A DNA stretch of 39,796 nucleotides from Prevotellaceae bacterium (GTDB taxonomy: Bacteria > Bacteroidota > Bacteroidia > Bacteroidales > Bacteroidaceae). The position numbers and the translations under genes are program-made. Location of the stretch: positions 1 through 39,796 of the forward strand of contig JAQXTH010000016.1 in NCBI GenBank assembly GCA_029219385.1, written 5' to 3'. The number at the start of each line of letters is the position of its first letter. The stretch's first letter is position 1. The notes beneath the pieces are model-generated. The model had not been told where the DNA came from and did not search any database. It was given only the letters and a program-made list of their open reading frames with translations. Shown here piece by piece: positions 9,931 through 32,325 of the stretch.

Positions 9931-12900
9931 ATGGATAGAGTGTCAAGATTTGTTCTTCTGTGCGTGGCATTTGTATGCCCCCTGTTGGTTTGGGCCGGTG
10001 ATTTTTCGTTTGACCCGACAATGAAATTCAGGATTGCGTCGTGTCTTAATCTGAATGGGTCGTTGGCTTTGGGGGAAAATCATGGCAAGAACACTCCTGT
10101 TTGTGTGACAACAACCAACACGACCGATGAGGATTGTTATTGGTATATCTATGAGTATAAGACAAACAAATATGCCATACGCAACGCCAAGAGTGGTGAG
10201 TTTATAGTGATTGACGACGTGAGGAGCGAAACGCCCTTCAGACGATATATGCACTTGGAGAAGAGTGTGAAAAACGACTCTGCTCTTTGGACTATCGGGC
10301 AACAGAGCGACGGTAGTTTTTATTTTCAGAGTGTGGCAGCTCCAAATTATTGCTTTAATCTGAGAACTTCCAACTATGCCCTGGGTGCATATCGCGAGGG
10401 TGGCACTCCCTCTGCCTCAAACGAGATGTTTTATCTTTATAAGGAAAATGGCAGTGTCTATAATAGTTATAACGACATCAACAAGAGTTGTGGCGTGGAC
10501 GACAATGGCTTCTACTGGACAAATGTGGGGATAGAGTGCCCTGTGGCCTACACAACGGATGACAGCAACCCGATTTATTATCAGATTAAAAATGTGAGGT
10601 CGGGCAATTATTTGATGCCCGATTCTTATGTTGCTCAGAGTATCGATGTTGCTTCGAGGCGTTTTTACTTTAAGGAGGCTCAAGAGGGTGTTCAGATATT
10701 TGTGGAGGGCAACGGGTTTGTTTCGGGCGAGTTGCCCAACGTGATGTCGACATCAAGTTCTGATGTTAAGGTCGAAAGCGGTGCTCCCGGCAAAGATGAT
10801 CATGTTTGGGGCATTTCGTATTGTGACGACGAAAGTTATGCGGGCTACAGCATTGGTGTGGTGGCTTGCAGCAAGAATGCGTCGTCAAATCCTCGTTTGT
10901 CGAGCGGCGCGGTTTATTGGAATGACTATTTTGGCGAGGGCCTTTGTTTTTATGAAGTTGATGCCGGGTCGACGTTTGTGTTTGTGTCGGACGATATTCG
11001 CCACCGCGACCATTTGTGTGGTTATGGATTGGTGATACCTGCGGAAACATTGCCGAACGTTGATCCTGTTGCTCCTGATAACCCCGACGACCCCGACAAT
11101 CCGACCGATAATTCAGAGGTTGAGCCCATTGTGGGCAGCATAACGCATGTTTATCGTGCAGACGGCAAGATTGATGCCATTCCCGACATTTATGTGGAGA
11201 ATGTGTCGTTTGACAACGACAGTGTGGTGGTGACAACCAAAAATGGAGGGCCGAGATATTCCTATAGGGATTATGAGGTAGATTCTGTGTCGAGTTGCAG
11301 GCCTGCCAACCTGCCGGTGTTTGGTTCGTTTAAATTTAACAATAAGTTTAACCCTCATTTGATTTCAGATGCCATGGGCGTGTTTTATGGTGATACGCTC
11401 GTGACGCTCAATCCGATTTGCATTGGCAAGAGATTGCGTCCGTCTTTTAAGGTTGACGACGACGTTGAAGTCTTTATAGGCAATAGGTTGCAGCAAAGCA
11501 AGGTGACGCGCACACGCTATGACAAGGATGTGGTCTATACGCTGGCACGCCGCGGGCACAGGGTATTGAGACGCACTCTTGATGGTGATTATGTTGTTTA
11601 TCCCTATGGTCGCGAAACGAGGGTGAGCGTGGATTTTGCCACAGACCATTCGACCGGAGAGTATAAAGTTCCCACGGTGTATATCACCACCGACGATGGC
11701 ACGATGATTACTTCCAAGTCGTATTATTGGGACGCAAAGATCACTATTGACGGGGCCGGGGTTTTTCCCGATATGCCCGAAACGGCAATGCAGATAAAGG
11801 GGCGTGGAAACTCTTCGTGGACTTCCACCGGCAAGGCCCCATACCACATGAAGTTTGCCACAGCGGTGAAGCCTCTCGGATTGACCAAGGGCAAGCATTG
11901 GAATTTGATAGCCAATGCACAGACGCGTTCGATGACCTCTAATGCTGTTGCCATGAAGATGGCGCAACTTGTGGAAACGGCCGGATATAATCATGAAATA
12001 CCAATTGAGTTGTATATAAACGGTCAGTATCGCGGGTCGTATAATCTGACGGAGAAAATAGGCTTTGCCAATAACAGCATAGATTTGGTGGACGAGACGT
12101 ATGCCGCCATGCTCGAGTTGGACAGTTATTATGATGAGGCTTATAAATTTCGCACTTCAAAATATAATCTGCCTGTAAACATTAAGGAGCCGGACCTTAG
12201 CGAGGGTGTCTCGCCACTCACAAGTCTGCACATAAACGAGAATTTTAACCGGGTGACGACGGCACTGTATAATGATGAGGATATGAGCAATTATCTTGAC
12301 CTTGATTATCTGGCAAGGTTTTTGTTTGTGGACGAGTATGCTTTTAACTCTGAGTTTATGCACCCCAAGAGTACTTTCTGCTATAATGAGAATGTGATGA
12401 ACTCTGACTCGAAATATATTTTTGGTCCGGTTTGGGATTTCGACTGGAGTTATGGCTATCAATATACCGGCAACTATTTCACCTATTCACCCGAGGTGGA
12501 TTTTTGGAACAGCGTTAGCATGGAGGCGACTCAGTGGACGCGCGACATGAGATATTGTGGAGAGAATTTCAACAAGGTGTATTATAATTTGTGGCACCGG
12601 TTTATGAACGATGGCAGTCTGGAAGAACTTATTGAGTTTTGCCAAGACTATTATGATTTTGCCGCCGAGTCGTTTAGCCACGATAATACGAAATGGGGAC
12701 GCGGCGATGCCGATACTTATGCCGGAGTGACAAGCAACGCAAAGAACTGGTTGAAGCAGAGGGCGGAATATATATATAATTATATGTCCAACACGTTGGG
12801 TTATGCCGACAAGGGTTATCTTGAAACAGTGAAAGATGATGTCGTGGTTGGCGACGTGAATGGTGACGGAGTTGTGACAACGGCAGACTTGGTCTGTGTG

Positions 12901-13689
12901 CTTAGTTATATATTGGGAATTGCGGTGGAAGAATTTGATTATAATCAGGCCGACACCGACTCTAATGACATGATAACGATTGGAGACGCGTTGAACATTC
13001 GCGATTTGATAGTGGCAGAGAGCATCAACAGCAGCCGCTTCTATGGTTTGCCCGAGGCCGACGCTGTTGTCAGGTCGGGCGCGGCCTTGCACGGGGTTTC
13101 GGGTGTAAGCATTCCGTTGACCATAGTTGTGAACGAGGGTAATTATAGTGGTGTGCAGTTTGATTTGAGAGTTCCGAGAGGAATGGTGATAGAGGATTTG
13201 GACATAAGCAAATCCATACCCGACTTTGATTTGTCTGTGATGCCTTTAGACAGGTCAACAACAACCTCTGAGATTGCCAATGATTATTATAGAGTCTCGA
13301 TTTATGCATCGGCAAATCGTGTGTTGCCCCGAGGAAAATCTGAATTGAATTTGGTTTTGGCATGGGGCGAGGCAGATAAGAGCGAGGGGTTATATAATGT
13401 TTCGCTCTCAAACGTGATGTTTGTAAATTCCAATGGCGAAGACGAGCGTTCGGCAGCCCAGTCGTCGCAATTCTGTGTAGAGGCTCCTACCGGCATAAAC
13501 GAGTTTGCCACCCTTGTGGCTCAAGATAATAACAAACTAACATTCAGTACAACCGAAAATACAGTTGTTGCCATTTATGGTGTGGACGGAAAGTTGTATC
13601 GTCTCTATGAGTTGGGTATAGGCAATACGATGTTGACGTTGCCCCGGGGTGTTTATCTTGTGAACAAACAGAAAATAGTGGTGCATTGA
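9931..13689 (+). CDS. Secreted CotH-kinase protein with dockerin and cohesin-like domains
   Basis: This 1252-aa modular secreted protein has, in order: a signal peptide (1-22); two beta-trefoil (ricin-like) regions (about 25-185 and 205-370); an Asp/Pro/Asn linker (377-400); a beta domain (about 405-570); a CotH-kinase domain (about 580-955) with IKGRGNSSW, KGKHWNLIANAQ, GSYNLTEKI and GPVWDFDW (832-839; D836/D838 are candidate metal ligands); a type I dockerin (974-1030) with Ca-loop repeats DVNGDGVVTTAD and DTDSNDMITIGD; a cohesin-like beta domain (about 1055-1170, GVQFDLRVP); and a C-terminal module (1188-1252) ending GVYLVNKQKIVV, like a type A T9SS sorting domain. CotH proteins phosphorylate secreted proteins, for example Bacillus spore-coat proteins; the substrate here is unknown. 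The domain names are my reading of motifs. The next gene starts 32 nt downstream. Confidence 0.85.
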   Translation: MDRVSRFVLLCVAFVCPLLVWAGDFSFDPTMKFRIASCLNLNGSLALGENHGKNTPVCVTTTNTTDEDCYWYIYEYKTNKYAIRNAKSGEFIVIDDVRSETPFRRYMHLEKSVKNDSALWTIGQQSDGSFYFQSVAAPNYCFNLRTSNYALGAYREGGTPSASNEMFYLYKENGSVYNSYNDINKSCGVDDNGFYWTNVGIECPVAYTTDDSNPIYYQIKNVRSGNYLMPDSYVAQSIDVASRRFYFKEAQEGVQIFVEGNGFVSGELPNVMSTSSSDVKVESGAPGKDDHVWGISYCDDESYAGYSIGVVACSKNASSNPRLSSGAVYWNDYFGEGLCFYEVDAGSTFVFVSDDIRHRDHLCGYGLVIPAETLPNVDPVAPDNPDDPDNPTDNSEVEPIVGSITHVYRADGKIDAIPDIYVENVSFDNDSVVVTTKNGGPRYSYRDYEVDSVSSCRPANLPVFGSFKFNNKFNPHLISDAMGVFYGDTLVTLNPICIGKRLRPSFKVDDDVEVFIGNRLQQSKVTRTRYDKDVVYTLARRGHRVLRRTLDGDYVVYPYGRETRVSVDFATDHSTGEYKVPTVYITTDDGTMITSKSYYWDAKITIDGAGVFPDMPETAMQIKGRGNSSWTSTGKAPYHMKFATAVKPLGLTKGKHWNLIANAQTRSMTSNAVAMKMAQLVETAGYNHEIPIELYINGQYRGSYNLTEKIGFANNSIDLVDETYAAMLELDSYYDEAYKFRTSKYNLPVNIKEPDLSEGVSPLTSLHINENFNRVTTALYNDEDMSNYLDLDYLARFLFVDEYAFNSEFMHPKSTFCYNENVMNSDSKYIFGPVWDFDWSYGYQYTGNYFTYSPEVDFWNSVSMEATQWTRDMRYCGENFNKVYYNLWHRFMNDGSLEELIEFCQDYYDFAAESFSHDNTKWGRGDADTYAGVTSNAKNWLKQRAEYIYNYMSNTLGYADKGYLETVKDDVVVGDVNGDGVVTTADLVCVLSYILGIAVEEFDYNQADTDSNDMITIGDALNIRDLIVAESINSSRFYGLPEADAVVRSGAALHGVSGVSIPLTIVVNEGNYSGVQFDLRVPRGMVIEDLDISKSIPDFDLSVMPLDRSTTTSEIANDYYRVSIYASANRVLPRGKSELNLVLAWGEADKSEGLYNVSLSNVMFVNSNGEDERSAAQSSQFCVEAPTGINEFATLVAQDNNKLTFSTTENTVVAIYGVDGKLYRLYELGIGNTMLTLPRGVYLVNKQKIVVH

Positions 13690-13721
13690 TTTTAATTGAA
13701 ACTGATTATATAAATTAGAGT

Positions 13722-15164
13722 ATGAAGAAAATATTTTTGTTGATAGCAATAGTGCTATGTGTCTCAATGGTCTCAAAGGCAGAGGATAAGATTATGCTTA
13801 ACATAGTGCGCAACAATGTCACGCAGTGGACTATGTCGGTGGCCCTTGAAAACACAGAGAATGTTTATGGTGGTTTTCAGATGGATTTTGTATTGCCCGA
13901 GGGTTTTAGTGTTGATTTGTCGACACTTGAAACAACCGCCCGTTTGTCGAACATCACAGTTCAGACAAATTTGCTGAGCAGTGGCAATGTGAGAGTGGTG
14001 GGCTATGCTGCCTCCAAGAAAAAAAACATAACCGGGACATCGGGTAATATTTTTTTATTGAAGTTTAACTCTGCCATGGAATTGTCAGAGGGCTCATTCA
14101 GCGTTGTGGCAAAGAACGTGAGATTTACCAATGGTGTGGAAGAAAATCTTTTGGCAGGAGTGACACAGTCGTTTGGCTTGGATCCGTTGACAATGCGCAA
14201 TGTTAATTTTTGGAACAATGGCGAGTTGTATAAGACTATACAGGTTGTGGTGGGCAATGCCATTCCCGTGGACGATGAACCGGCCGGAGAGGAGGGGTAT
14301 TCGTTTTGTGGTTGGGGAGAGGTCCCGAGCGAAATGCCCGACCGGGATATAGACCTCTATGCCACATGGTGCAGACAGTCTTTCTTGTTGTCGTATAGTG
14401 TGGAGGGAAAGGTTGTTCACAGCGAGATGGTGGCATATGGAGATTCATTGCCGGATTTCACCCCTGAGGATGTGGAGGGATATTCTTTCTGCGGTTGGAC
14501 AGATGCGCCGGAAATCATGCCTGCTTCCAATTTGACCATTCATGCCAAGATGTGTGTGAAGTACTATACCTTATCTTATATAGTAGACGGCGAGGTTGTG
14601 CATAGCGAAGATGTGGCCTATCAGAGCGCTCTGCCCCAATATGAGCCTGATGATAAAGAGGGCTATACTTTTGTTGGCTGGAGGGATGCTCCCGAGTCTA
14701 TGCCGGCTGATGATTTGTCGCTTGAGGCAGAATGGAAAGTCAATAAATATAATGTGACTTATTATGTGAACGGAGAGTTGGTCTATACACAGGAAGTGGA
14801 ATATGGCGCAACATTTGAGCTATATGACTATAAGCCGGCAGAGGACAACAAGTATTTGTTTGGGGGTTGGCGGGGAGAAGTTTATGAGACAATGCCCGCA
14901 CACGATATTAGATATGAAACCACCCTTGTTTTGCTTGGCGACGTAAATCTTGATGGCGAGGTGAACACCAGCGACGTTGTTGCGATATATAATTTTATTT
15001 CGGAGGGTGAGTCTTCGGGAGTGAAAGGTATTTATGCAGATCTCAATGGCGATAATGTTGTAAATGCCGCAGATGTTGCCACCGCGTATAATCTGATAGT
15101 ATTTGGTAGCACAATTACGAGCAAAAAGTATCGTGAGGCCATAATGGAATTGTTGGCTGACTGA
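13722..15164 (+). CDS. Secreted cohesin-like / InlB-repeat / dockerin protein
   Basis: This 480-aa protein has a signal peptide (about 1-20) and a cohesin-like beta-sandwich (about 22-155; features VYGGFQMDFVLPEGF, NVRVVGYAASKKKNITG and a later strand FSVVAKNVRFTNG). Four InlB B-type (Listeria-Bacteroides) repeats of about 57-60 aa follow (about 160-402), each with a GYxFxGW core and a following MPxxDL-type turn. A C-terminal type I dockerin spans 406-463, with loops D407-D418 (DVNLDGEVNTSD) and D440-D451 (DLNGDNVVNAAD). Unlike its two neighbours it has no T9SS-like tail after the dockerin. It may therefore be held at the surface through dockerin-cohesin contacts with them; this is inference. 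It lies 32 nt after the first CotH gene and 13 nt before the second. Confidence 0.82.
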   Translation: MKKIFLLIAIVLCVSMVSKAEDKIMLNIVRNNVTQWTMSVALENTENVYGGFQMDFVLPEGFSVDLSTLETTARLSNITVQTNLLSSGNVRVVGYAASKKKNITGTSGNIFLLKFNSAMELSEGSFSVVAKNVRFTNGVEENLLAGVTQSFGLDPLTMRNVNFWNNGELYKTIQVVVGNAIPVDDEPAGEEGYSFCGWGEVPSEMPDRDIDLYATWCRQSFLLSYSVEGKVVHSEMVAYGDSLPDFTPEDVEGYSFCGWTDAPEIMPASNLTIHAKMCVKYYTLSYIVDGEVVHSEDVAYQSALPQYEPDDKEGYTFVGWRDAPESMPADDLSLEAEWKVNKYNVTYYVNGELVYTQEVEYGATFELYDYKPAEDNKYLFGGWRGEVYETMPAHDIRYETTLVLLGDVNLDGEVNTSDVVAIYNFISEGESSGVKGIYADLNGDNVVNAADVATAYNLIVFGSTITSKKYREAIMELLAD

Positions 15165-15177
15165 AAGTTTCTTTGTC

Positions 15178-18100
15178 ATGAAAAGAATTTGTTTGATAGT
15201 AGTATTGTTTGCTTTTGTGGCAAGCATGGCGAGCGCAGGAATATTGAAGTTTAGCCCTTATGTGAAATATCGCATAGAGAGTATATATTCCACGGGCAGC
15301 AGTGTTGCGTTGGGAGCAAATCACAACATCAATTCTCCTTTGTGTTTGGAGCGTTATTCGGTTTTAGCAAAGGCGGAGGATTGTTATTGGAAATTTGACT
15401 ATAAGGGTGATGGAAAATATTCAATTTGCAACGCTTCGACCAATGAATACATCACGCTTGACGACAATTATGCCTCTACTCCGATGATTTTGCGCTATAT
15501 TCATCTCTCGACTGAGATAGAGGGCGACGCGTCGTTGTGGTATATAAAAAAGACGGACAATGACGCTTATGGCGAAGTGATTTATTTTCAGAACGCATAT
15601 AATGAAAGTTTCTTCTTTAATTTGCGCTCAAACAGTTATGTCATGGGGGCCTATGGGAAGAGTCCTGAGAGTGTGCCCTATGGTATAAATGAGTTGTTTC
15701 GTATATATGACGAAAATGATGAACTTTATATTGCAGAGGAAATTTCTGAGGATACTACTGTTGTAGAAGAACATGACAGCCTGGCATTGTTGCCAATAGA
15801 ATGTCCGATTGTGCATATTTATCGTGCAGACGGAAAACTTGATGCTTTTCCACAGAATTTTATAGTAAGCAGCAGTGTTTCTTCAGACTCTGTTGTGATA
15901 AAGGCAATTAACGGGAGGACATATGCTTATGCGTCATACGAAGTGGATTCTATCTCGGAAAATGCTCCCATAATGCCTCATTTCAATTCTTTTAAGTTTA
16001 ATAATAAATATAATCACCATATTGTGGAAGACGCTCAAGGTATTTTCTATGGTGACACCTTGATAACAGCTTATGTGGTAGGCATAGGAAAGAATTTGCG
16101 CCCCTCTTTCAAATTAGACGATGATGTGCAGGCATGGATAGCCGACAAACCCCAACAAAGCAAGGTGAGCAGCGTGAGGTTTACCCGTGACATTACATAT
16201 ACGATAGCGCGGCGCGGATATAACATCTTGCGTCAGACAGTAGACAGTGTTTATCAAATTCGTCCCTATGGCAGCGAAACAACAGTTAGGGTGGATTTTG
16301 CAACAGACCATTCTGTGGGGCAATATACCGTACCTACAATTTATATCACCACCGACGACGGCACGATGATCACTTCCAAATCTTATTATTGGAAAGCGAA
16401 GATTAGAATAGACGGAGCGGGAGTTTTTCCCGATATGCCCGAAACGGCGATGGAAATAAAGGGTAGGGGTAATACTTCGTGGACTTCCACCGGCAAGGCT
16501 CCTTATCACATGAAGTTTGCCACAGCGGTGAAACCTCTCGGACTGACCAAAGGCAAACATTGGAATTTGATTGCCAACGCTCAGAGACGATCCATGACAA
16601 GCAATGCCATTGCCATGAAGATGGCACAGTTGGTAGAAACGGCAGCCCCAAACCATGAAATTCCTGTTGATCTGTATATTAACGGAGAGTATCGCGGGTC
16701 GTATAACCTGACGGAGAAAATTGGTTTTTCAAACAATAGTGTTGATCTGCAATACGAAAACTATGCCACCATGTTGGAATTAGACCGCTATTATGACGAG
16801 ACGTATAAATTTCGCACTACGAGGTATAATCTGCCGGTGAACATCAAAGAACCTGACTTTTCCGACAAAGAGAGCACGACGTTGATTACCCAAGATTTGA
16901 TAAAGACAAGTTTTGAACGGTTGACAAATGCTCTTTATGACGGTGAGGACATAAGCGGAATAGTCGACCTTGATTATCTGGCGCGTTTCTTGTTTGTGGA
17001 TGAGTTTACAGGCAACTTTGAGTTGATGCACCCCAAGAGTACTTTTGTGTATAATGAAAATATTTTAAATGCAGACTCTAAGTTTATATTTGGTCCGGTG
17101 TGGGATTTTGACTGGGCTTATGGCTATTGCAACAATTCCAATTATTTCACTTCATACGACACTGTTGATTATTTTCAGCGAACCGACGGTGACGGTTATC
17201 CATGGGTATACAAGCAGCGTTATTGCGGAGAGAAATTTGATAAGATATATTATAATCTGTGGTATGACTTTGTCAATAGTGGAAAACTTGATGAGTTGAT
17301 AGATTTTTGTGACGACTATTATGATTTTGCAGCGAGGTCTTTTACCCATGATAATACAAAATGGGGTCGTGGTGATGCTTCAACCTATGCCGAAGTTACA
17401 AAGAATGCAAAAAAATGGTTGCGCACTCGTGCAAATCATGTGTTGGACTATATGACAAATACCCTTGGATATGGTTCGAAGAATTATATCACAAGTCCTT
17501 TGAATCCTAGGCCGGGTGACGTGAATGGCGATGGTCGTATCACAACGGCCGATGTGGTGTGTGTCTTTAATTATATTTTGAATTTGCCCAATGAGGAGTT
17601 TAATTTCCTTCAAGCAGACATGGACTCGAACGACATTATCACCGTTTCGGACCTTTTGGCCGTGCGCAATCTCATCGGTTCTGCAAAATCAAAGGGATTC
17701 TATGGCTTGCCTCTCGCTGATGCAATTGTATCTTTAGGAACTGTTTCTGAAACAAACAATGGTGTCAATTTGCCTTTGAATATTATTGTTGACGAGGGCG
17801 ATTATTGCGGTTTGCAGTTTGATTTGACGGTGCCGGCAGGAATGACTGTTGACAACATAGATTTAAGTTCCTCGGTGCCTGATTTTGATGTGTCTGTTTC
17901 GGCTGTAGAAAAAGAAGAGGGTAGCAGTGCAGAAAGAGATTGCTATCGTGTGTCGATATACTCGTCGGCAAAACATCTCTTCCCTCGGGGTTCTTCTGAA
18001 ATCAATATTGAAATGGGATGGCCTGATGGCGGTGAGCCAAAAAAGGTAGTGAACTTCTCATTAGCCGGCGTGATGTTTGTAGACGCAGTTGGCGAAGATG

Positions 18101-18345
18101 AGCGTGCAGAGTCGCGCACGGCAATTTTCACTCCTGACAATATTACCGGAATAGATGGTGTTGTTTCGTTTGTGAAGCAGATTGGTGATAAACTTGTTTT
18201 TGAAACGAAAGAAAAAACTCTGATGCCTATCTATGGAGTAGACGGTCGTTTATATAAGATATTTGAGTTGGCGGAAGGTCAACACTCCGTTACTTTGCCA
18301 AAGGGCATTTATTTAATAGATAAACAAAAAGTAGTTGTGGAATAA
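15178..18345 (+). CDS. Second secreted CotH-kinase protein with dockerin and cohesin-like domains
   Basis: This 1055-aa paralogue of the protein at 9931-13689 lacks the second trefoil-like region and the acidic linker. Order: signal peptide (1-20); one beta-trefoil-like region (about 22-185); beta domain (about 215-375); CotH-kinase domain (about 385-765) with IKGRGNTSW, KGKHWNLIANAQ and GPVWDFDW (639-646; D643/D645); type I dockerin (780-838) with DVNGDGRITTAD and DMDSNDIITVSD; cohesin-like domain (about 860-975, GLQFDLTVP); and a C-terminal module (about 991-1055) ending GIYLIDKQKVVV. The CotH cores of the two proteins are far more alike than their N-termini. Its stop overlaps the metF start (TAATG), so metF may be translationally coupled to it. 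Substrate and partner are unknown. Confidence 0.85.
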   Translation: MKRICLIVVLFAFVASMASAGILKFSPYVKYRIESIYSTGSSVALGANHNINSPLCLERYSVLAKAEDCYWKFDYKGDGKYSICNASTNEYITLDDNYASTPMILRYIHLSTEIEGDASLWYIKKTDNDAYGEVIYFQNAYNESFFFNLRSNSYVMGAYGKSPESVPYGINELFRIYDENDELYIAEEISEDTTVVEEHDSLALLPIECPIVHIYRADGKLDAFPQNFIVSSSVSSDSVVIKAINGRTYAYASYEVDSISENAPIMPHFNSFKFNNKYNHHIVEDAQGIFYGDTLITAYVVGIGKNLRPSFKLDDDVQAWIADKPQQSKVSSVRFTRDITYTIARRGYNILRQTVDSVYQIRPYGSETTVRVDFATDHSVGQYTVPTIYITTDDGTMITSKSYYWKAKIRIDGAGVFPDMPETAMEIKGRGNTSWTSTGKAPYHMKFATAVKPLGLTKGKHWNLIANAQRRSMTSNAIAMKMAQLVETAAPNHEIPVDLYINGEYRGSYNLTEKIGFSNNSVDLQYENYATMLELDRYYDETYKFRTTRYNLPVNIKEPDFSDKESTTLITQDLIKTSFERLTNALYDGEDISGIVDLDYLARFLFVDEFTGNFELMHPKSTFVYNENILNADSKFIFGPVWDFDWAYGYCNNSNYFTSYDTVDYFQRTDGDGYPWVYKQRYCGEKFDKIYYNLWYDFVNSGKLDELIDFCDDYYDFAARSFTHDNTKWGRGDASTYAEVTKNAKKWLRTRANHVLDYMTNTLGYGSKNYITSPLNPRPGDVNGDGRITTADVVCVFNYILNLPNEEFNFLQADMDSNDIITVSDLLAVRNLIGSAKSKGFYGLPLADAIVSLGTVSETNNGVNLPLNIIVDEGDYCGLQFDLTVPAGMTVDNIDLSSSVPDFDVSVSAVEKEEGSSAERDCYRVSIYSSAKHLFPRGSSEINIEMGWPDGGEPKKVVNFSLAGVMFVDAVGEDERAESRTAIFTPDNITGIDGVVSFVKQIGDKLVFETKEKTLMPIYGVDGRLYKIFELAEGQHSVTLPKGIYLIDKQKVVVE

Positions 18346-26092: not shown

Positions 26093-27415
26093 CTATGTGT
26101 TTAACAAATGTCTTATTTTTATCATATCTCGCCAACCCATAAAGATAGCTTTGGTTTGTTTTACAAACAAATGTCGGTAGGCGGGAATTAAAGCGTCAGC
26201 CAAATAGCCGGCAGCGATGTTTGAAGCGATAGCCACAAATGCTGCAGCAATGACGCCATATTTTGGCAATAGCCAATAGTTCAGTGCCACGCACACAATG
26301 CAGCCTGAGATGTCGCGCAGGAAAACCCATCGTTGCAGCCCCTCTACAATCAGCATGGCTCCGGCAGTGTTGGATAGTGCCGTAGCAGTCATTTTGAATG
26401 ACAGAATCTGCAAGATTGCCACAGCCGGCAGATAATCCTCACCAAAGGTGAATTTTATTATCCAATAGGAAATCATTGTTACTACAGTGCTGCATATAAT
26501 GCTTGTCCATAGTGAGATGTTCATGAATTGTTGAGCTTTTGCGGCATATAGAGAGAAATTTTCTTTTCTAAGTTTCACCAACACCGGCGAAATTGTATTA
26601 GCTAAAGTGGCAGGAATAAAGATCATCACTTCCACAAATTTTGCCGCCACGGAAAAATATCCCACATTTGTTTTGTCTACCAACTGACCTATCATTACCT
26701 GGTCTATTCTCTGATATATTATCACGGCAGCATTTGTGATGAGCAATGGAAAAGATTCTTTCAGCATATAGCGTGCATACGAAGCGGAAAATCTCCAGTC
26801 TTTAATACTCCCAACGTGTGTTTTGTAGGCAGAAATATAACCACCCGCCAATAAAATCCAGTCAAATGCAAACGCTGCAACAAACCACTCGAGCGAACAA
26901 TTCAACAATAACAAAACAACCTTTATTGCAATGCCCACAAAAGTGCGAAATATTTCAGACATCACAACATATTTGTTTCTCACAATAGCAGTGAAGTAGT
27001 TTCTTATCACCACAAAAGAATTAAAGACGATATATGTGGCATAGATGGCAATAAGACTGATGGTAAAAGAATCTTCGGCCAGCAAAAACGCTGTTGCGAT
27101 TGACAAACCTATGCAAATTGTTCCGAATATAAGTTTTATAAAGAAAGCTGTACCCACAATCACATTGTAGGGCACAGCTTTTTTTGCTTCCTCTCTCACC
27201 TCGATGCTGTCGAGCCCAAAACTTGCCAAGGTTTGAAATAAAAAAACATAACTGATTACATAGTTCATCAGTCCGTATTGACGTGGACCGAGATAACGAG
27301 CCACAATAATGCCCAAAACTAATGTGCCGGCAAGGTTGATAGTCTTTCCGGCAACAGCCCACGCAAGGTTGGAGATAACCTTTTGTTTTGTTTCAGACAA
27401 TTTCAGATTAAACAT
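26093..27415 (-). CDS. wzx: Wzx-like polysaccharide flippase
   Basis: This MATE/MVF-fold transporter has about 12 hydrophobic segments (440 aa) and would flip undecaprenyl-linked oligosaccharide units across the inner membrane. The start of the family pattern is visible in NLAWAVAGKTINLAGTLVLG and ARYLGPRQYGLMNYV at the first two helices, and IYQRIDQVMIGQL near the middle is typical of polysaccharide flippases. It is separated by only 2 nt from the upstream dehydrogenase, so the two are co-transcribed. Substrate specificity cannot be read from the sequence. Confidence 0.9.
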   Translation of the reverse strand: MFNLKLSETKQKVISNLAWAVAGKTINLAGTLVLGIIVARYLGPRQYGLMNYVISYVFLFQTLASFGLDSIEVREEAKKAVPYNVIVGTAFFIKLIFGTICIGLSIATAFLLAEDSFTISLIAIYATYIVFNSFVVIRNYFTAIVRNKYVVMSEIFRTFVGIAIKVVLLLLNCSLEWFVAAFAFDWILLAGGYISAYKTHVGSIKDWRFSASYARYMLKESFPLLITNAAVIIYQRIDQVMIGQLVDKTNVGYFSVAAKFVEVMIFIPATLANTISPVLVKLRKENFSLYAAKAQQFMNISLWTSIICSTVVTMISYWIIKFTFGEDYLPAVAILQILSFKMTATALSNTAGAMLIVEGLQRWVFLRDISGCIVCVALNYWLLPKYGVIAAAFVAIASNIAAGYLADALIPAYRHLFVKQTKAIFMGWRDMIKIRHLLNT

Positions 27416-27417
27416 CG

Positions 27418-28689
27418 TTAAAGTCTTCCGTCAACAATCTTGCGGTCTGCCACACCCTTCACGTCATAGATAACTCCATTCTCTCCTGCCAAAGCCCTTA
27501 GGTCAAGTTCTGCAAATTCTTTGTGCGCCACAGCCAGAATAATGGCATCGTATGTTGTGTCTGTCGGAATGTTTTTGATTGTTTCTATGCCATATTCGGC
27601 AGAAACCCTGTCTGAGTCTGCCCAGGGGTCGCAAATTGTGATATTATCGGTATATTCTTTGAGTGTGTGGTAGATGTCTATCACTTTGGTGTTTCTTATG
27701 TCGGGACAGTTCTCTTTGAAGGTGAACCCCAACACAAGGATTTTGGCGTTTTTCACCAACACTCCTTTTTTGTTCATCAACTTGATGGTTTGATTGGCCA
27801 CATATTCGCCCATTCCATCGTTCAGGCGTCGCGAATTGCTCATAATGCGCGGCATAATGCCATAGACCTGAGCTTTTTGAATCAAATAGTAGGGGTCAAC
27901 CGAGATGCAGTGACCACCCACAAGGCCCGGACTGAGTTTGATAAAATTCCATTTGCTTGAGGCCGCTTCAATCACATCGTGGGTGTCAATGCCCATAGCA
28001 TTGAAGATTTTGGCAAGTTCGTTCATGAAAGCGATGTTTACGTCGCGTTGGCTGTTTTCGATAATCTTCGAGGCCTCTGCCACTCTGATTGACGGTGCTT
28101 TGTGGGTGCCGTTTGTCAATACGGCATTATACACATTGTCAATGAAGTCGGCAGTCTCGGGTGTCGAACCACTGGTCACTTTCTTTATTTTCTCAACAGT
28201 GTGGGTCTTGTCGCCCGGATTTATACGCTCGGGTGAGTAGCCGGCAAAGAAATCAACATTGTATTTCAGTCCCGAAACCTGTTCTATCACCGGAATACAT
28301 TCCTCTTCGGTCACTCCGGGATAAACCGTCGACTCATATACAACAATGTCGCCCCGACCGATAACCGTTCCCACAGTTTTGCTTGCGTTTATAAGCGGAG
28401 TGAGGTCGGGGCGGTTATTTTTGTCTACCGGTGTCGGCACTGCCACAACATATAGATTACACTCTTTTATGTCGTTTATTTCGCTGGTGCATTTAAACCC
28501 CTTGTCAATAGCCTCTTTGAGCAGAGAGTCGCTTATCTCAAGTGTATTGTCGTGTCCCGACATTATAGTGTCGACTCGTTTTTTGTTAAGGTCGTAACCG
28601 ATGGTTTTGAATTTTGTGGAAAAAAGTCTTGCTAAAGGCAGACCCACATATCCCAAGCCAATCACTGCTATGTTTATATCTTTAATCAT
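27418..28689 (-). CDS. Nucleotide-sugar (UDP-HexNAc) 6-dehydrogenase
   Basis: This NAD-dependent UDP-sugar dehydrogenase oxidises C6 to a uronic acid. It is closest in pattern to the TviB/WbpA type that acts on UDP-N-acetylhexosamines rather than to UDP-glucose dehydrogenases. Visible: Rossmann motif GLGYVGLPLA (11-20), VPTPVDK, ESTVYPG (119-125), GYSPERINPGD (150-160), AEASKIIENSQRDVNIA, and the catalytic cysteine C261 in GGHCISVDPYY. At 423 aa it is full-length. It implies that the exported polymer contains an N-acetylhexosaminuronic acid, which is an inference from the family. It overlaps the upstream wzz gene by 8 nt. Confidence 0.9.
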   Translation of the reverse strand: MIKDINIAVIGLGYVGLPLARLFSTKFKTIGYDLNKKRVDTIMSGHDNTLEISDSLLKEAIDKGFKCTSEINDIKECNLYVVAVPTPVDKNNRPDLTPLINASKTVGTVIGRGDIVVYESTVYPGVTEEECIPVIEQVSGLKYNVDFFAGYSPERINPGDKTHTVEKIKKVTSGSTPETADFIDNVYNAVLTNGTHKAPSIRVAEASKIIENSQRDVNIAFMNELAKIFNAMGIDTHDVIEAASSKWNFIKLSPGLVGGHCISVDPYYLIQKAQVYGIMPRIMSNSRRLNDGMGEYVANQTIKLMNKKGVLVKNAKILVLGFTFKENCPDIRNTKVIDIYHTLKEYTDNITICDPWADSDRVSAEYGIETIKNIPTDTTYDAIILAVAHKEFAELDLRALAGENGVIYDVKGVADRKIVDGRL

Positions 28690-29824
28690 TGCTATTGTCT
28701 GTTTCTATGTTATAGACATTGTTGTCTACTGCATAATTATCTATTGTTTGTGATTTTTTATTGCGCAGTTGTGCTAAGATTTTCTTTCCGCTAAGCAAAT
28801 AAAATGCCGTAGTGAAGAATGTGAACACGATGATAAGCAAAGTATAGATTACTCTTTTCGGACCATCCGGTTTGATAGGCACACTGGCACATTTCAAGGT
28901 GGTGAAAGCCGGTGTGCGCTCTTGCACTCTGGCCTTTGCCTGTTCTACTTGTTGTTGCAAGGCGGTGTAGATGTTAAACTTCACACGCATATCGTTCTCA
29001 AGTTCATCTCGCTGTGAGATATAACTTTGCATGATGATATTTTTGTGGCTGTCGGAATATGCGCTATATGCGTTGATTGCCTTATCATAGTCTTGCTTGG
29101 CTTTGTTCATCAAGTCTTGATAATATTCCATGTCGTTGCGTGCTTTGCCGGTGCGATAGCGCGTGATGAAGAGCTGAAGATGTTCTCTTACAGAGTCGGC
29201 AACAGAAGCGCAGACTAAAGGGTCTTGGTCTGTCACGCTGATTGTGATGATATAATTCACAGGATCTACGCTACACGATATTTTATTGCTTATCGCTTCT
29301 GCAACTCCATATTGTTTTTTGTTAAGTCTGAAAGGGTCAATTTCTATTTGTTTGTTTTGGTCGTTGTTGTCTTCAGACGTAAAGATATTTTTGAAAAATC
29401 TTTTCACAGCTCTGAAGCCGACAGTCCACCATGCGGCTTTTTGATGTTTGTTGATATAGTCGTAATAGTTGGTTTTGAGTTTTCCGTCTTCTGTAGTGAT
29501 TTTCACGTCAAACAAACTCACCAAAAACTCTTTAGAGTTTATCAAGTCGGGGTAAAGCGAAGGCGAGATTGCATCGCTATTCATGCCACCGCCCAAATTG
29601 ATGCCTAAAGACGATGCTATCGACGAAAAAGACCCCAGCGACGCGCTGCTGTTGTCAAATTCGGGTGCGAGAGCCACTTCACATTTGTAATATCTGGGCA
29701 CACACAATATAAGCGCGGCAAAAACCACGCCGGCCACCACGCAGTTTCTGATGATGATTTTCTTGTGTGCCAGCAAAATTTTTGCAGCACTTATGAGGCC
29801 CATGTTTGATGGTTTGGTTTCCAT
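28682..29824 (-). CDS. Wzz/GumC-type chain-length determinant, copy 2
   Basis: This is a second Wzz-type polysaccharide co-polymerase (380 aa). Transmembrane helices are at about 24-46 and 325-347. Between them lies the periplasmic domain with a GSFSSIASSLGINLGGG stretch after TM1 and a coiled coil at about 235-310. The C-terminal cytoplasmic tail (about 350-380) is polar and Asn/Asp-rich, with three tyrosines or fewer, so it is not an obvious Wzc-type phosphorylation tail. Shared segments with the other copy (NYYDY, VTDQDPLVC, YRTGKAR/YRTNKAR) show they are paralogues. It overlaps the dehydrogenase by 8 nt and lies 29 nt after wza. Confidence 0.88.
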   Translation of the reverse strand: METKPSNMGLISAAKILLAHKKIIIRNCVVAGVVFAALILCVPRYYKCEVALAPEFDNSSASLGSFSSIASSLGINLGGGMNSDAISPSLYPDLINSKEFLVSLFDVKITTEDGKLKTNYYDYINKHQKAAWWTVGFRAVKRFFKNIFTSEDNNDQNKQIEIDPFRLNKKQYGVAEAISNKISCSVDPVNYIITISVTDQDPLVCASVADSVREHLQLFITRYRTGKARNDMEYYQDLMNKAKQDYDKAINAYSAYSDSHKNIIMQSYISQRDELENDMRVKFNIYTALQQQVEQAKARVQERTPAFTTLKCASVPIKPDGPKRVIYTLLIIVFTFFTTAFYLLSGKKILAQLRNKKSQTIDNYAVDNNVYNIETDNSND

Positions 29825-29853
29825 GTTGGAGAGTCTGTGTGAGAGAACAATTC

Positions 29854-32325
29854 TTATTTTATGATGTTTAAGATACTGATAATGATTGCCGCCAACGAGG
29901 CTCCGCCTGTTCCGATACTCATTATTTCAGCAGTGGTTAGCTTTTTGCTGATTTCTTTTGTTGGCACTATGATTTCGCAACCCGGTTGCACGGTGTTGCG
30001 CGAACCTTTCTCTGCTTTGGCAACAGCACCGTTGGCATATACGATATAAATTCCTCGTTTCACAGCTTTGTCTGCATAGCCACCTGCGTGTTTGATATAA
30101 TAACTTAGTTTCTCGCCCTTTTTGTAGTTCATACTGATGGGGAATGCCACTTCACCCTTAATCTTAACAATGTTGGAGAATTGTGGAATGCTAAGACTGT
30201 CGCCTTTCTGCAAAACAATGTCGTGGGGGCCTCCGGGTTCGCTAAGGGCTTTAGACAAGTCAATGGCGAGAGGGTAGGTGTCGTCAAGTCCCATCTTGAT
30301 GGCGAGCAGAGAGTCTGCTTTTTCCAGGTCAAATTTCTTGTCGGAGTCATAACTCTCTTCATAGAGTTTTGATTGAGCCTGTCTCAAGGCGTTGTTTCGC
30401 TGAATTTTTTCATTGAAAGTCAATTTGCGGGTTAGTCTGGCTCCGGGAGTATAGGCCAGCGAGGTGAAACCGCCCGATTCTCTGATAAGGTCGCTCAACC
30501 GGTAGTCTTTTTTAGTGATTACATACGAGCCGGCAAAATTCACACAGCCGTTGATCGTCACAGTCTCTTGGGTTTCATATCCCGGGCTGCGGCGTATCAC
30601 GACTTGGTCGTATGGTTTGAGATAGAATGTTGTGTCACTCATAATATCATAATTCTCGTTGAGCGAGAAAGCAAAGTGCTCGGCAATCTTGTCGCGGTCT
30701 TGTTTTGTAGTGCGGTTCACGACTCTGCGATAGATGTCTACTTGGGCAAGGCTGGCGGCGTCGGTCAGTCCTCCTGCCAGCAAGATAGCGTCTTGAATGG
30801 TGCTGTTTTCGGCAAAAGGATATTTGCCCGGATAGATGATTTCTCCCACAATGTTGATGTTCCAATCGCCACGCATTTCGTTTTTGCTTGGGATAAACAA
30901 AACATCGTTTTTCTTTAGAGGAACATCGGCCACTTTGCCGTCTAAAATGCCCTGAACGTCAACGCTGACCATTTCGAGCGACAAATCATCCTTTTGTCGG
31001 TGCATTATGGCGCGTTTGTTATAGGCATCTTCTCTCAGTCCGTCGGCTGCTTTAATCAATTCGCCCACACTTTGTATTTTGTTGCCCAATTGGAATTGCC
31101 CCGGGTGCATCACTGCTCCGCGCACCTCGACCATGTTGCTGTATCGGGCGTTGATGGCATCGATCTCCACTTCATCACCGTCTGCCACTATAAATGCGCC
31201 CATCTCAAATTCGTCGATGGTATGAATGCTGTATTCGAGCCCCGATTTGCGAATGAGCCTCACGTTTTTGGTATATGCTTCGTTGGCATATCCACCCGAA
31301 AATGTAATTACTTGTTTCACGTTTTCCTCTTTGCGCATTTCGTAATACATCGGGCGTTTCACCTGGCCCGAGACCTTCACGAGACAATCGTATGTGCCAA
31401 CAACGATAATATCTTTGTCTTGCAGCCTGACGTCGCTTTTTGTGTTGCCGTTAATGAGGTAGTCATAGACATCGACAACGGTGAGCACCTTGTTGTTGCG
31501 ATAAACCTTGATATTGCGCAGTGTGCCGGTCTCGGTAATTCCTCCGGCAGTGTAGAGGGCGTTGAAAGTGGTGGCCAATCCGCTCAGAGAATACGAGCCC
31601 GGCATTTTTACTTCACCGACCACCTGCACTTGTATTGTGCGTATATTGCCAAGCGACAAGTTAAAACTGCAATCACCATAATATTGTCCGAGTTTTTTCT
31701 TGATTGCAGCCTTCGCGCCTTCTACAGTCAGTCCTGCAAGACGTATGGGTCCTATTTCGTCAATCACAATCACGCCATCGGGTGAAATGGTTGTGTCAAA
31801 AGTCTTTTGGCTTGCTCCCCAAACGTCAACAATCACTTGGTCGCCTGCCCCCAAGATATAGTTCACGGGCGTAGGCATATTTATGTTGGGTTCAAAGGTG
31901 AGGTTTTCAAGATTAAAAATGTCGTGACCGAAAATCTTTTTTATCGGTGCATTCTCAAGTGAGGCAATTTCGAGAGAGTCGAGAGCCGTGTATTGTTGCA
32001 GGCTTATGCTATTCACAGAGTCATAAGGCACGTCCAAGGGTTTCACGGTTTCCTTGTGTTGGTCGCTTTCGCGTTGTCGGTCGATTTTTGGCTTTGTGGC
32101 TACGGTGTTGCGTTGTGCTTCAAGCAGTTTTCGTGCGCGGCTTATCTGATCCGTACTTACACCTTTTTGAAACAGGTCGGTCACGATTTTTGTTTGGCTT
32201 GTGCCTTTCGCAATTTCAGAGGCGATATAGCCAGCCACTTGTTCGTCGCTCATCAGCGACTGGGCATGTGTGGCGCAAAGTCCCGCTATAAGCATTGCGG
32301 TGACAAAAAGTATTCTTCTTATCAT
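29854..32325 (-). CDS. wza: Wza-like polysaccharide export protein with several SLBB domains
   Basis: This is an outer-membrane polysaccharide export protein, much longer than E. coli Wza (823 aa). It has a signal peptide (1-22, ending THAQ) and a helical linker, then the polysaccharide-export domain (about 145-217; YILGAGDQVIVDVWG). A row of about five SLBB-type beta domains follows (about 225-790; e.g. VQVVGEVKMPGSYSLSG, VRGAVMHPGQFQLG, INIVGEIIYPGKYPF). The C-terminus ends in a hydrophobic segment (about 802-822) that could cross or contact the membrane. I see no convincing lipobox, unlike E. coli Wza. It is the first gene of the EPS operon. Confidence 0.93.
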   Translation of the reverse strand: MIRRILFVTAMLIAGLCATHAQSLMSDEQVAGYIASEIAKGTSQTKIVTDLFQKGVSTDQISRARKLLEAQRNTVATKPKIDRQRESDQHKETVKPLDVPYDSVNSISLQQYTALDSLEIASLENAPIKKIFGHDIFNLENLTFEPNINMPTPVNYILGAGDQVIVDVWGASQKTFDTTISPDGVIVIDEIGPIRLAGLTVEGAKAAIKKKLGQYYGDCSFNLSLGNIRTIQVQVVGEVKMPGSYSLSGLATTFNALYTAGGITETGTLRNIKVYRNNKVLTVVDVYDYLINGNTKSDVRLQDKDIIVVGTYDCLVKVSGQVKRPMYYEMRKEENVKQVITFSGGYANEAYTKNVRLIRKSGLEYSIHTIDEFEMGAFIVADGDEVEIDAINARYSNMVEVRGAVMHPGQFQLGNKIQSVGELIKAADGLREDAYNKRAIMHRQKDDLSLEMVSVDVQGILDGKVADVPLKKNDVLFIPSKNEMRGDWNINIVGEIIYPGKYPFAENSTIQDAILLAGGLTDAASLAQVDIYRRVVNRTTKQDRDKIAEHFAFSLNENYDIMSDTTFYLKPYDQVVIRRSPGYETQETVTINGCVNFAGSYVITKKDYRLSDLIRESGGFTSLAYTPGARLTRKLTFNEKIQRNNALRQAQSKLYEESYDSDKKFDLEKADSLLAIKMGLDDTYPLAIDLSKALSEPGGPHDIVLQKGDSLSIPQFSNIVKIKGEVAFPISMNYKKGEKLSYYIKHAGGYADKAVKRGIYIVYANGAVAKAEKGSRNTVQPGCEIIVPTKEISKKLTTAEIMSIGTGGASLAAIIISILNIIK

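Follow-up and report, generated by a model that had tools for sequence, protein, structure and literature searches.

CotH modules joined to docking modules are known from clostridia and gut fungi. In Clostridium thermocellum, CseP (Cthe_0044) and Cthe_0239 are cellulosomal proteins with a CotH module and a type I dockerin (PMC6083626). In anaerobic gut fungi CotH occurs in about 20% of the dockerin proteins, with a role called unproven (PMC8665504). Non-cellulosomal proteins combining a dockerin and several cohesins in one chain have been reported from ANME archaea and others, with no role in cellulose use known for them (PMC9012536). Dockerins have also been recorded in rumen Prevotella and other Bacteroidetes, their role being called not yet defined (PMC7480376), and one genome without cohesins or dockerins was described as "consistent with other Bacteroidetes" (PMC5831590). 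No description of Bacteroidales proteins with CotH, dockerin and cohesin was found in the literature searched by title and start of abstract, with most subscription journals outside the search. Here we describe three genes, P1, P2 and P3, at positions 9931-18345 of a window of 39,796 nucleotides, contig JAQXTH010000016.1 of a Prevotellaceae bacterium (assembly GCA_029219385.1). Judged by their sequences, they would encode an exported cohesin-dockerin assembly on the cell surface with a specialised CotH active site, a reading to which we give a probability of roughly 55%.

The genes lie on the forward strand, separated by gaps of 32 and 13 bases. P1 (9931..13689, 1252 amino acids) and P3 (15178..18345, 1055 amino acids) are tandem paralogues with 56% identity over the alignment and the same order of modules: a signal peptide (seen by eye), a ricin-like region, an unnamed domain, CotH, a dockerin, a cohesin-like domain and a C-terminal tail. 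The modules were placed from open reading frames, Pfam matches and our own domain profiles, which were built with P1 and P3 among their sequences. About 200 extra residues ahead of the unnamed domain in P1 are absent from P3. P2 (13722..15164, 480 amino acids) has a signal peptide (by eye) and a cohesin-like domain, followed by repeats of the List_Bact type and, at its C-terminal end, a dockerin; it has no tail. A first-pass annotation of the window had proposed two secreted CotH proteins of these lengths with dockerins, and a third dockerin protein between them. Both statements held, in that the reading frames are as described, both CotH domains score above the cut-off, the dockerin loops are visible and P2 matches PF00404 at 40.6 bits. 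The N-terminal cohesin-like domain and the repeats of P2, the ricin-like region of P1, the tandem duplication and the Asp-to-Glu change described below had gone unremarked.

In the proposed assembly, P1 and P3 would probably be carried over the outer membrane and retained by their C-terminal tails via the type IX secretion system (T9SS). The C-terminal dockerin of P2 would anchor this protein to a cohesin in P1 or P3, and the cohesin of P2 could take the dockerin of P1 or P3. Such contacts could build chains or a mesh on the cell that display the ricin-like domains, which are probably sugar-binding, and the CotH domains. The latter have a conserved, specialised site that retains the Lys and the metal-type Asp, with a Glu swapped in at the catalytic position and HPKS next to it, and might be either phosphotransferases whose efficiency or chemistry has changed or binding domains. 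We infer the surface location, the binding pairs, the sugar binding and the role of CotH.

The CotH domains match PF08757 (cut-off 23.8 bits) at 50.5 bits in P1 (11794..12774, E=2.9e-13; 54.6 bits in the genome search) and at 68.7 bits in P3 (16459..17439, E=8e-19; 72.5 bits in the genome search). They were compared with relatives found with two short bait patterns in GTDB genome contigs, an incomplete sample of 80 loci out of at least 111 confirmed, which hold 87 related CotH proteins. The position aligned with the catalytic Asp is Glu in all 89 members of this subfamily (P1, P3 and the 87 relatives): Glu808 in the P1 motif NSEFMHPKS (12346..12372) and Glu615 in the P3 motif NFELMHPKS (17014..17040). 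Asp occupies this position in the third CotH of the genome (C46) and in all 30 other CotH domains compared from the order, in an alignment where the subfamily was represented by 15 rows. These 30 were the best-scoring Pfam matches among 295 genomes, and the comparison set therefore leans to typical members. Of the 90 rows, 86 contain the exact motif NxExxHPKS; L066, L095, L106 and C46 lack it. Lys440, Trp642, Asp643 and Asp645 (P3 numbering) are invariant in all 90, and all 30 other CotH share the Lys and the second Asp. From the alignment and from general knowledge of the family, we take Lys440 to be of the nucleotide-binding type and Asp643 to be the metal-type Asp; the latter lies in a PVWDFD motif, which holds Asp836 in P1 (12427..12444) and Asp643 in P3 (17095..17112). 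Since Lys440 and Asp643 do not vary, the site is strongly constrained and not decaying.

In the CotH kinase of Bacillus subtilis both Asp228Gln and Asp251Ala are inactive (PMC7821199). The spacing between the catalytic and the metal residue is 23 in that protein, 28 between Glu and Asp in P1 and P3, and, by count, about 26 in typical other CotH. From the order of the motifs and this spacing, Glu615 would correspond to Asp228, the B. subtilis sequence itself being outside the alignment. Searches of the PDB by sequence with the P3 kinase, the C46 kinase and the family profile matched no CotH structure.

The ricin-like region of P1 (10000..10449, forward strand, limits by our own profile) matches PF14200 at 31.2 bits, over the cut-off of 25.6, and that of P3 (15241..15717) reaches 17.5 bits, below the cut-off, and is placed by our own profile, which includes P3. 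Among the 89 proteins, Pfam matches at E<=0.01 were obtained for CotH in 81, dockerin in 39, Cohesin in 2, RicinB_lectin_2 in 27 and F5/8 type C in 38. This repeated company of sugar-binding-type domains fits a view of CotH as a pure binding module that adheres to plant cell walls, mucin or the host and is only presented by the docking modules. Fungal dockerin-CotH proteins have likewise been speculated to bind the plant cell wall (PMC8665504). The invariant Lys, Glu, Ser and Trp-Asp of a kinase-type pocket suggest instead a ligand or some chemistry, and we regard a purely adhesive role as doubtful.

An active kinase that phosphorylates P2 or its own docking modules, and so regulates assembly much as CotH does in the spore coat of Bacillus, where CotB and CotG are its targets, would agree with a family match above the cut-off and with the constancy of Lys440 and Asp643, and a regulatory kinase role has been suggested for cellulosomal CotH (PMC12484212). 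The uniform Glu at the catalytic position weakens this interpretation: replacing Asp228 by Gln kills the activity of B. subtilis CotH, and a change to Glu is not mentioned in the available part of that report (PMC7821199). A stretch rich in Ser, Lys and Arg was not found in P1-P3, where these residues make up at most 0.30-0.35 of any 40. Known CotH substrates have such stretches. Nor do we know of any source of ATP outside the cell. Where Bacillus spores would obtain ATP has itself been called an unanswered question (PMC7821199). We consider such a kinase improbable, and the suggestion in the first-pass annotation that the proteins phosphorylate their own scaffold is not supported, on the same three counts. 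An unrelated beta domain combined with a lost active site is equally not what was found: the relation to cohesin, the Lys and the second Asp hold, and the first Asp is changed.

The docking modules that would carry the proposed assembly were compared with Dockerin_1 (PF00404, cut-off 22.9 bits) and Cohesin (PF00963, cut-off 24.1 bits). The dockerins score 19.5 bits by hmmscan in P1 (12850..12999), which is under the cut-off, 40.6 in P2 (14934..15080) and 33.0 in P3 (17512..17676). The genome search places the three about 4-5 bits higher, at 23.9, 44.9 and 38.5. Two EF-type calcium loops are found in each protein, six in all.

The cohesin-like domains lie at 13030..13491 in P1, 13761..14192 in P2 and 17689..18147 in P3 and were recognised by profile comparison. 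Profile A5 was built from 21 sequences of the P1/P3 type, A6 from 10 of the P2 type and A7 from 10 CotH proteins within this family. Homology to cohesin is reached through an intermediate profile: A5 matches A7 with E=3.9e-30, and A6 matches A5 with E=4.7e-17 and A7 with E=1.3e-19, while control profiles for five unrelated domains of these proteins gave E values of 0.02-0.73 against A5 and A6. Within the cohesin-like stretch, C-terminal pieces of two relatives that belong to A7 match PF00963 itself, L105 over the cut-off (29.1 bits) and L116 just under it (23.2 bits). Searches of the PDB with A5 and A7 returned no cohesin; for A6 the best match was a scaffoldin protein, which was not significant (E=0.065). 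The assignment of these domains as cohesin-like is well supported by the profile comparisons, and it is in this form, and not as a direct Pfam match, that the corresponding proposal of the first-pass annotation stands.

The C-terminal tails were placed at 13489..13686 in P1, where the tail resembles T9SS type A (TIGR04183, 13.8 bits by hmmscan and 18.2 in the genome search), and at 18145..18342 in P3, where its position and its motif are T9SS-like (13.9 bits in the genome search, no match by hmmscan). The cut-off is 23 bits, and the isolated tails matched no Pfam T9SS model. The two T9SS components searched for are both present in the genome, SprA at 2611 bits and the PorU sortase at 1032 bits, and of the 35 relatives' genomes searched, which hold 36 of the 80 loci, 33 have SprA. 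The tail as first annotated remains a weak assignment, even with secretion genes in the genome. This, together with the indirect recognition of the cohesin-like domains, leaves the first-pass observation confirmed in part.

Twenty-two non-CotH proteins, 21 in relatives and P2, match one of three cohesin-type profiles: five end in a dockerin, twelve in a tail by profile, three in a tail-like sequence by eye and two in neither, and none has both a dockerin end and a tail. Because the two exclude each other, the terminal dockerin and the terminal tail seem to do one job, which suggests that both serve attachment. A simple tail pattern is found at the end of 67 of the 87 CotH proteins; the remaining 20 comprise four dockerin-ended proteins, 14 tail variants by eye, L051, which is cut by the end of its contig, and L124 with neither.

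Record titles assign the 80 loci to Bacteroidaceae (42), Prevotellaceae (22), Bacteroidales (11), Prevotella (2) and, with one locus each, Alloprevotella, Candidatus Physcousia equi and Muribaculaceae, and a gut site or host is named outright for 36 of them. After the kinase, our own profiles found both dockerin and cohesin in 32 of the 87 CotH proteins, dockerin only in 5, cohesin only in 1 and neither in 49. Of the CotH genes with dockerin and cohesin, 18 of 30 are directly followed by a separate cohesin gene, as are 2 of 6 with one module and none of 49 with neither (Fisher p=3.1e-10, uncorrected for kinship). A gene was counted as downstream if it started between -60 and +200 bases, and only CotH genes with enough contig beyond them were included; L051 and L105 were dropped, and P1 and P3 were uncounted. 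The order P1-P2-P3 is complete in L049 and L050 and reaches the end of the contig in L048 and L054. The second genes of L049 and L050 have the cohesin gene directly upstream instead, and that of L048 has the contig-cut end of a P2 gene there.

Second genes of L048, L049 and L050 cluster in the tree (support 99), as do the first genes of L049, L050 and L054 together with L051 (support 88, not starred); the tree does not resolve P1 and P3. Clustering of first with first and second with second genes suggests that the CotH duplication is older than the split of the L048, L049, L050 and L054 genomes. The set is not universal in the family, since the three other genomes of the same family shown in the Pfam search (295 genomes drawn) all lack a CotH match.

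The source genome (2.18 Mb in 62 contigs, 88% complete, the window being one contig) has 22 dockerin matches. Two cohesin matches were found at E<=10, one of them above the cut-off, both on contig C18, where two adjoining scaffoldin-like proteins (L128:808-5445) have several cohesin-type and dockerin domains by our own profiles. Scanned as single domains by hmmscan, the two C18 cohesins score 25.3 bits (above the cut-off) and 17.7 bits; hmmscan of the two whole proteins gave no Cohesin at E<=0.05. Among ten dockerin proteins of this genome that were scanned are a C10 peptidase, an LRR protein, one with an FGE-sulfatase domain, several with List_Bact repeats and large nameless proteins. There was no cellulase among these ten, and we therefore do not claim a cellulosome. 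Dockerin matches are present in all 35 genomes of relatives, from 1 to at least 133 in each, and cohesin in 18 of the 35 above the cut-off and 25 at E<=0.01, in searches that score 1-5 bits above hmmscan where both are known.

The extremes of this repertoire are seen in L089 (Muribaculaceae RGIG7545), with at least 125 Dockerin_1 matches (134 of 209 candidates scored) and one Pfam cohesin at E<=0.01, and in L102 (uncultured Bacteroidales RUG14590), with at least 133 (134 of 241 scored) and none. Within the source genome, five large surface-type genes with differing fronts (L132, L133, L134, L135 and L137, on contigs C34, C52, C3, C2 and C10) have in common a 3' stretch of about 0.5-0.6 kb that encodes a dockerin and a cohesin-like domain and whose DNA is 90.6-96.1% identical to that of L135. 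Four of the five are broken at contig ends inside the stretch, as expected of a homogenised or recombining cassette. L141, L142, L143 and L144 have a single dockerin-type loop right after the signal peptide, an N-terminal half-dockerin, which in L143 is followed by an FGE-sulfatase domain; L141 and L142 are similar by eye. L138:2617-4776 is a C10 peptidase with a Spi inhibitor prodomain and a C-terminal dockerin.

That the dockerins and cohesin-like domains are only calcium-loop and beta-sandwich stalks without mutual binding would suit cohesin-like domains that stay below Pfam detection in P1-P3 and a genome such as L102, with its many dockerins and zero Pfam cohesins, but it is unlikely given that the two modules occur together in 32 of the 38 CotH proteins having either, that separate cohesin genes adjoin, that the calcium loops are kept, and that Pfam cohesins are found above the cut-off in the source genome as well as in 18 of the 35 others.

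Several observations weigh against the surface assembly proposed here. None of P1, P2 and P3 matches PF00963 directly, either whole or as single domains, and seven of nine scanned C-terminal pieces of relatives were also without a match, only two having one. Both tails fall below the TIGR04183 cut-off (13.8 to 18.2 bits), sub-cut-off matches to this model are present in 13 of 14 control genomes as well, and only 6 of 41 A3 proteins touched it at E<=0.05, with 48 others outside the scan. SprA was not found in the genomes of L050, which has the whole three-gene set, and L062, both of unstated completeness. The mechanism does not explain how P2, which lacks a tail, crosses the outer membrane. Twelve of the 30 CotH genes with dockerin and cohesin have no cohesin gene directly downstream. 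When the association is corrected for the tree, with P1 and P3 added, there are 5 independent contrasts on supported branches and 7 on all branches; on average 3.6 are in favour and none against, which is not significant (p=0.125). With so few contrasts, the link to a downstream cohesin gene is consistent but represents few independent events. A wider proposal is that T9SS-linked cohesin-dockerin surface assemblies are a feature of rumen and gut Bacteroidales, with a C-terminal dockerin able to stand in for the T9SS-type tail in attachment, and with a distinct CotH subfamily (NxExxHPKS, invariant Glu) as a hallmark whose chemistry differs from the usual protein phosphorylation by CotH. This is speculative, and we consider it unlikely.

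The unnamed domain before CotH (11122..11670 in P1, where it holds FKFNNK, and 15790..16332 in P3, both on the forward strand and by our own profile) matches no Pfam family above the cut-off and recurs in the CotH subfamily by our own profile. Conservation of FKFNNK was not counted as evidence, because FKFNNK was itself a search pattern and its conservation is partly selected. The repeats in P2 (approximately 14214..14912, forward strand) match List_Bact_rpt (PF09479) at 57.6 bits, as three repeats by Pfam; four GW repeats are seen by eye.

A GH20 hexosaminidase gene lies 242 bases upstream of P1, and the stop of P3 overlaps the start of an MTHFR gene. We did not adopt the idea that P1-P3 are part of a polysaccharide utilisation locus, since their neighbours are GH20 and MTHFR and all 11 neighbouring genes of the window that were tested lacked a match in the nine relative loci examined. 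A promoter scan gave 38 sigma-70-like sites (21.3 expected) and 6 terminator-like sites (7.9 expected). Promoters in this bacterial group are of another kind, and the scan was therefore set aside and not used as evidence. On the minus strand, the window has genes for SLBB/Poly_export, Polysacc_synt and UDPG/MGDP dehydrogenase proteins at 26096-32325, probably a capsule or exopolysaccharide cluster.

A CotH protein with dockerin and cohesin-like domains beside a free cohesin protein offers a small, testable cohesin-dockerin set in Bacteroidetes. The uniform change from Asp to Glu gives a clean test of whether CotH proteins in docking assemblies are kinases, a question that is open for cellulosomal and fungal CotH too.

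Compared with described systems, the rumen Bacteroidetes dockerins differ in their company: they are recorded on glycoside hydrolases, domains of unknown function and carbohydrate-binding modules, with the cohesin partner unnamed in the available part of the report (PMC7480376). For the ANME-type proteins, a pairing with CotH, T9SS or a three-gene set is not described in the excerpt at hand (PMC9012536). Fungal dockerins are of another type. The fungal proteins resemble P1 and P3 in having CotH and a dockerin, and the excerpt of that study mentions neither a cohesin nor a T9SS tail for them (PMC8665504). The spore-coat kinase of B. subtilis belongs to the same Pfam family, with the positions of the Lys and the second Asp kept, whereas its catalytic Asp228 (PMC7821199) would answer to Glu in P1 and P3. 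To our knowledge, there are no docking modules in B. subtilis CotH. The clostridial proteins CseP and Cthe_0239 are alike in combining CotH with a type I dockerin; P1 and P3 have Glu in the catalytic position, the residue of CseP being outside the comparison. In the clostridial cellulosome the cohesins are on separate scaffoldins, whereas P1 and P3 carry both a cohesin-like domain and a tail on the CotH chain itself, in a Gram-negative bacterium with T9SS genes.

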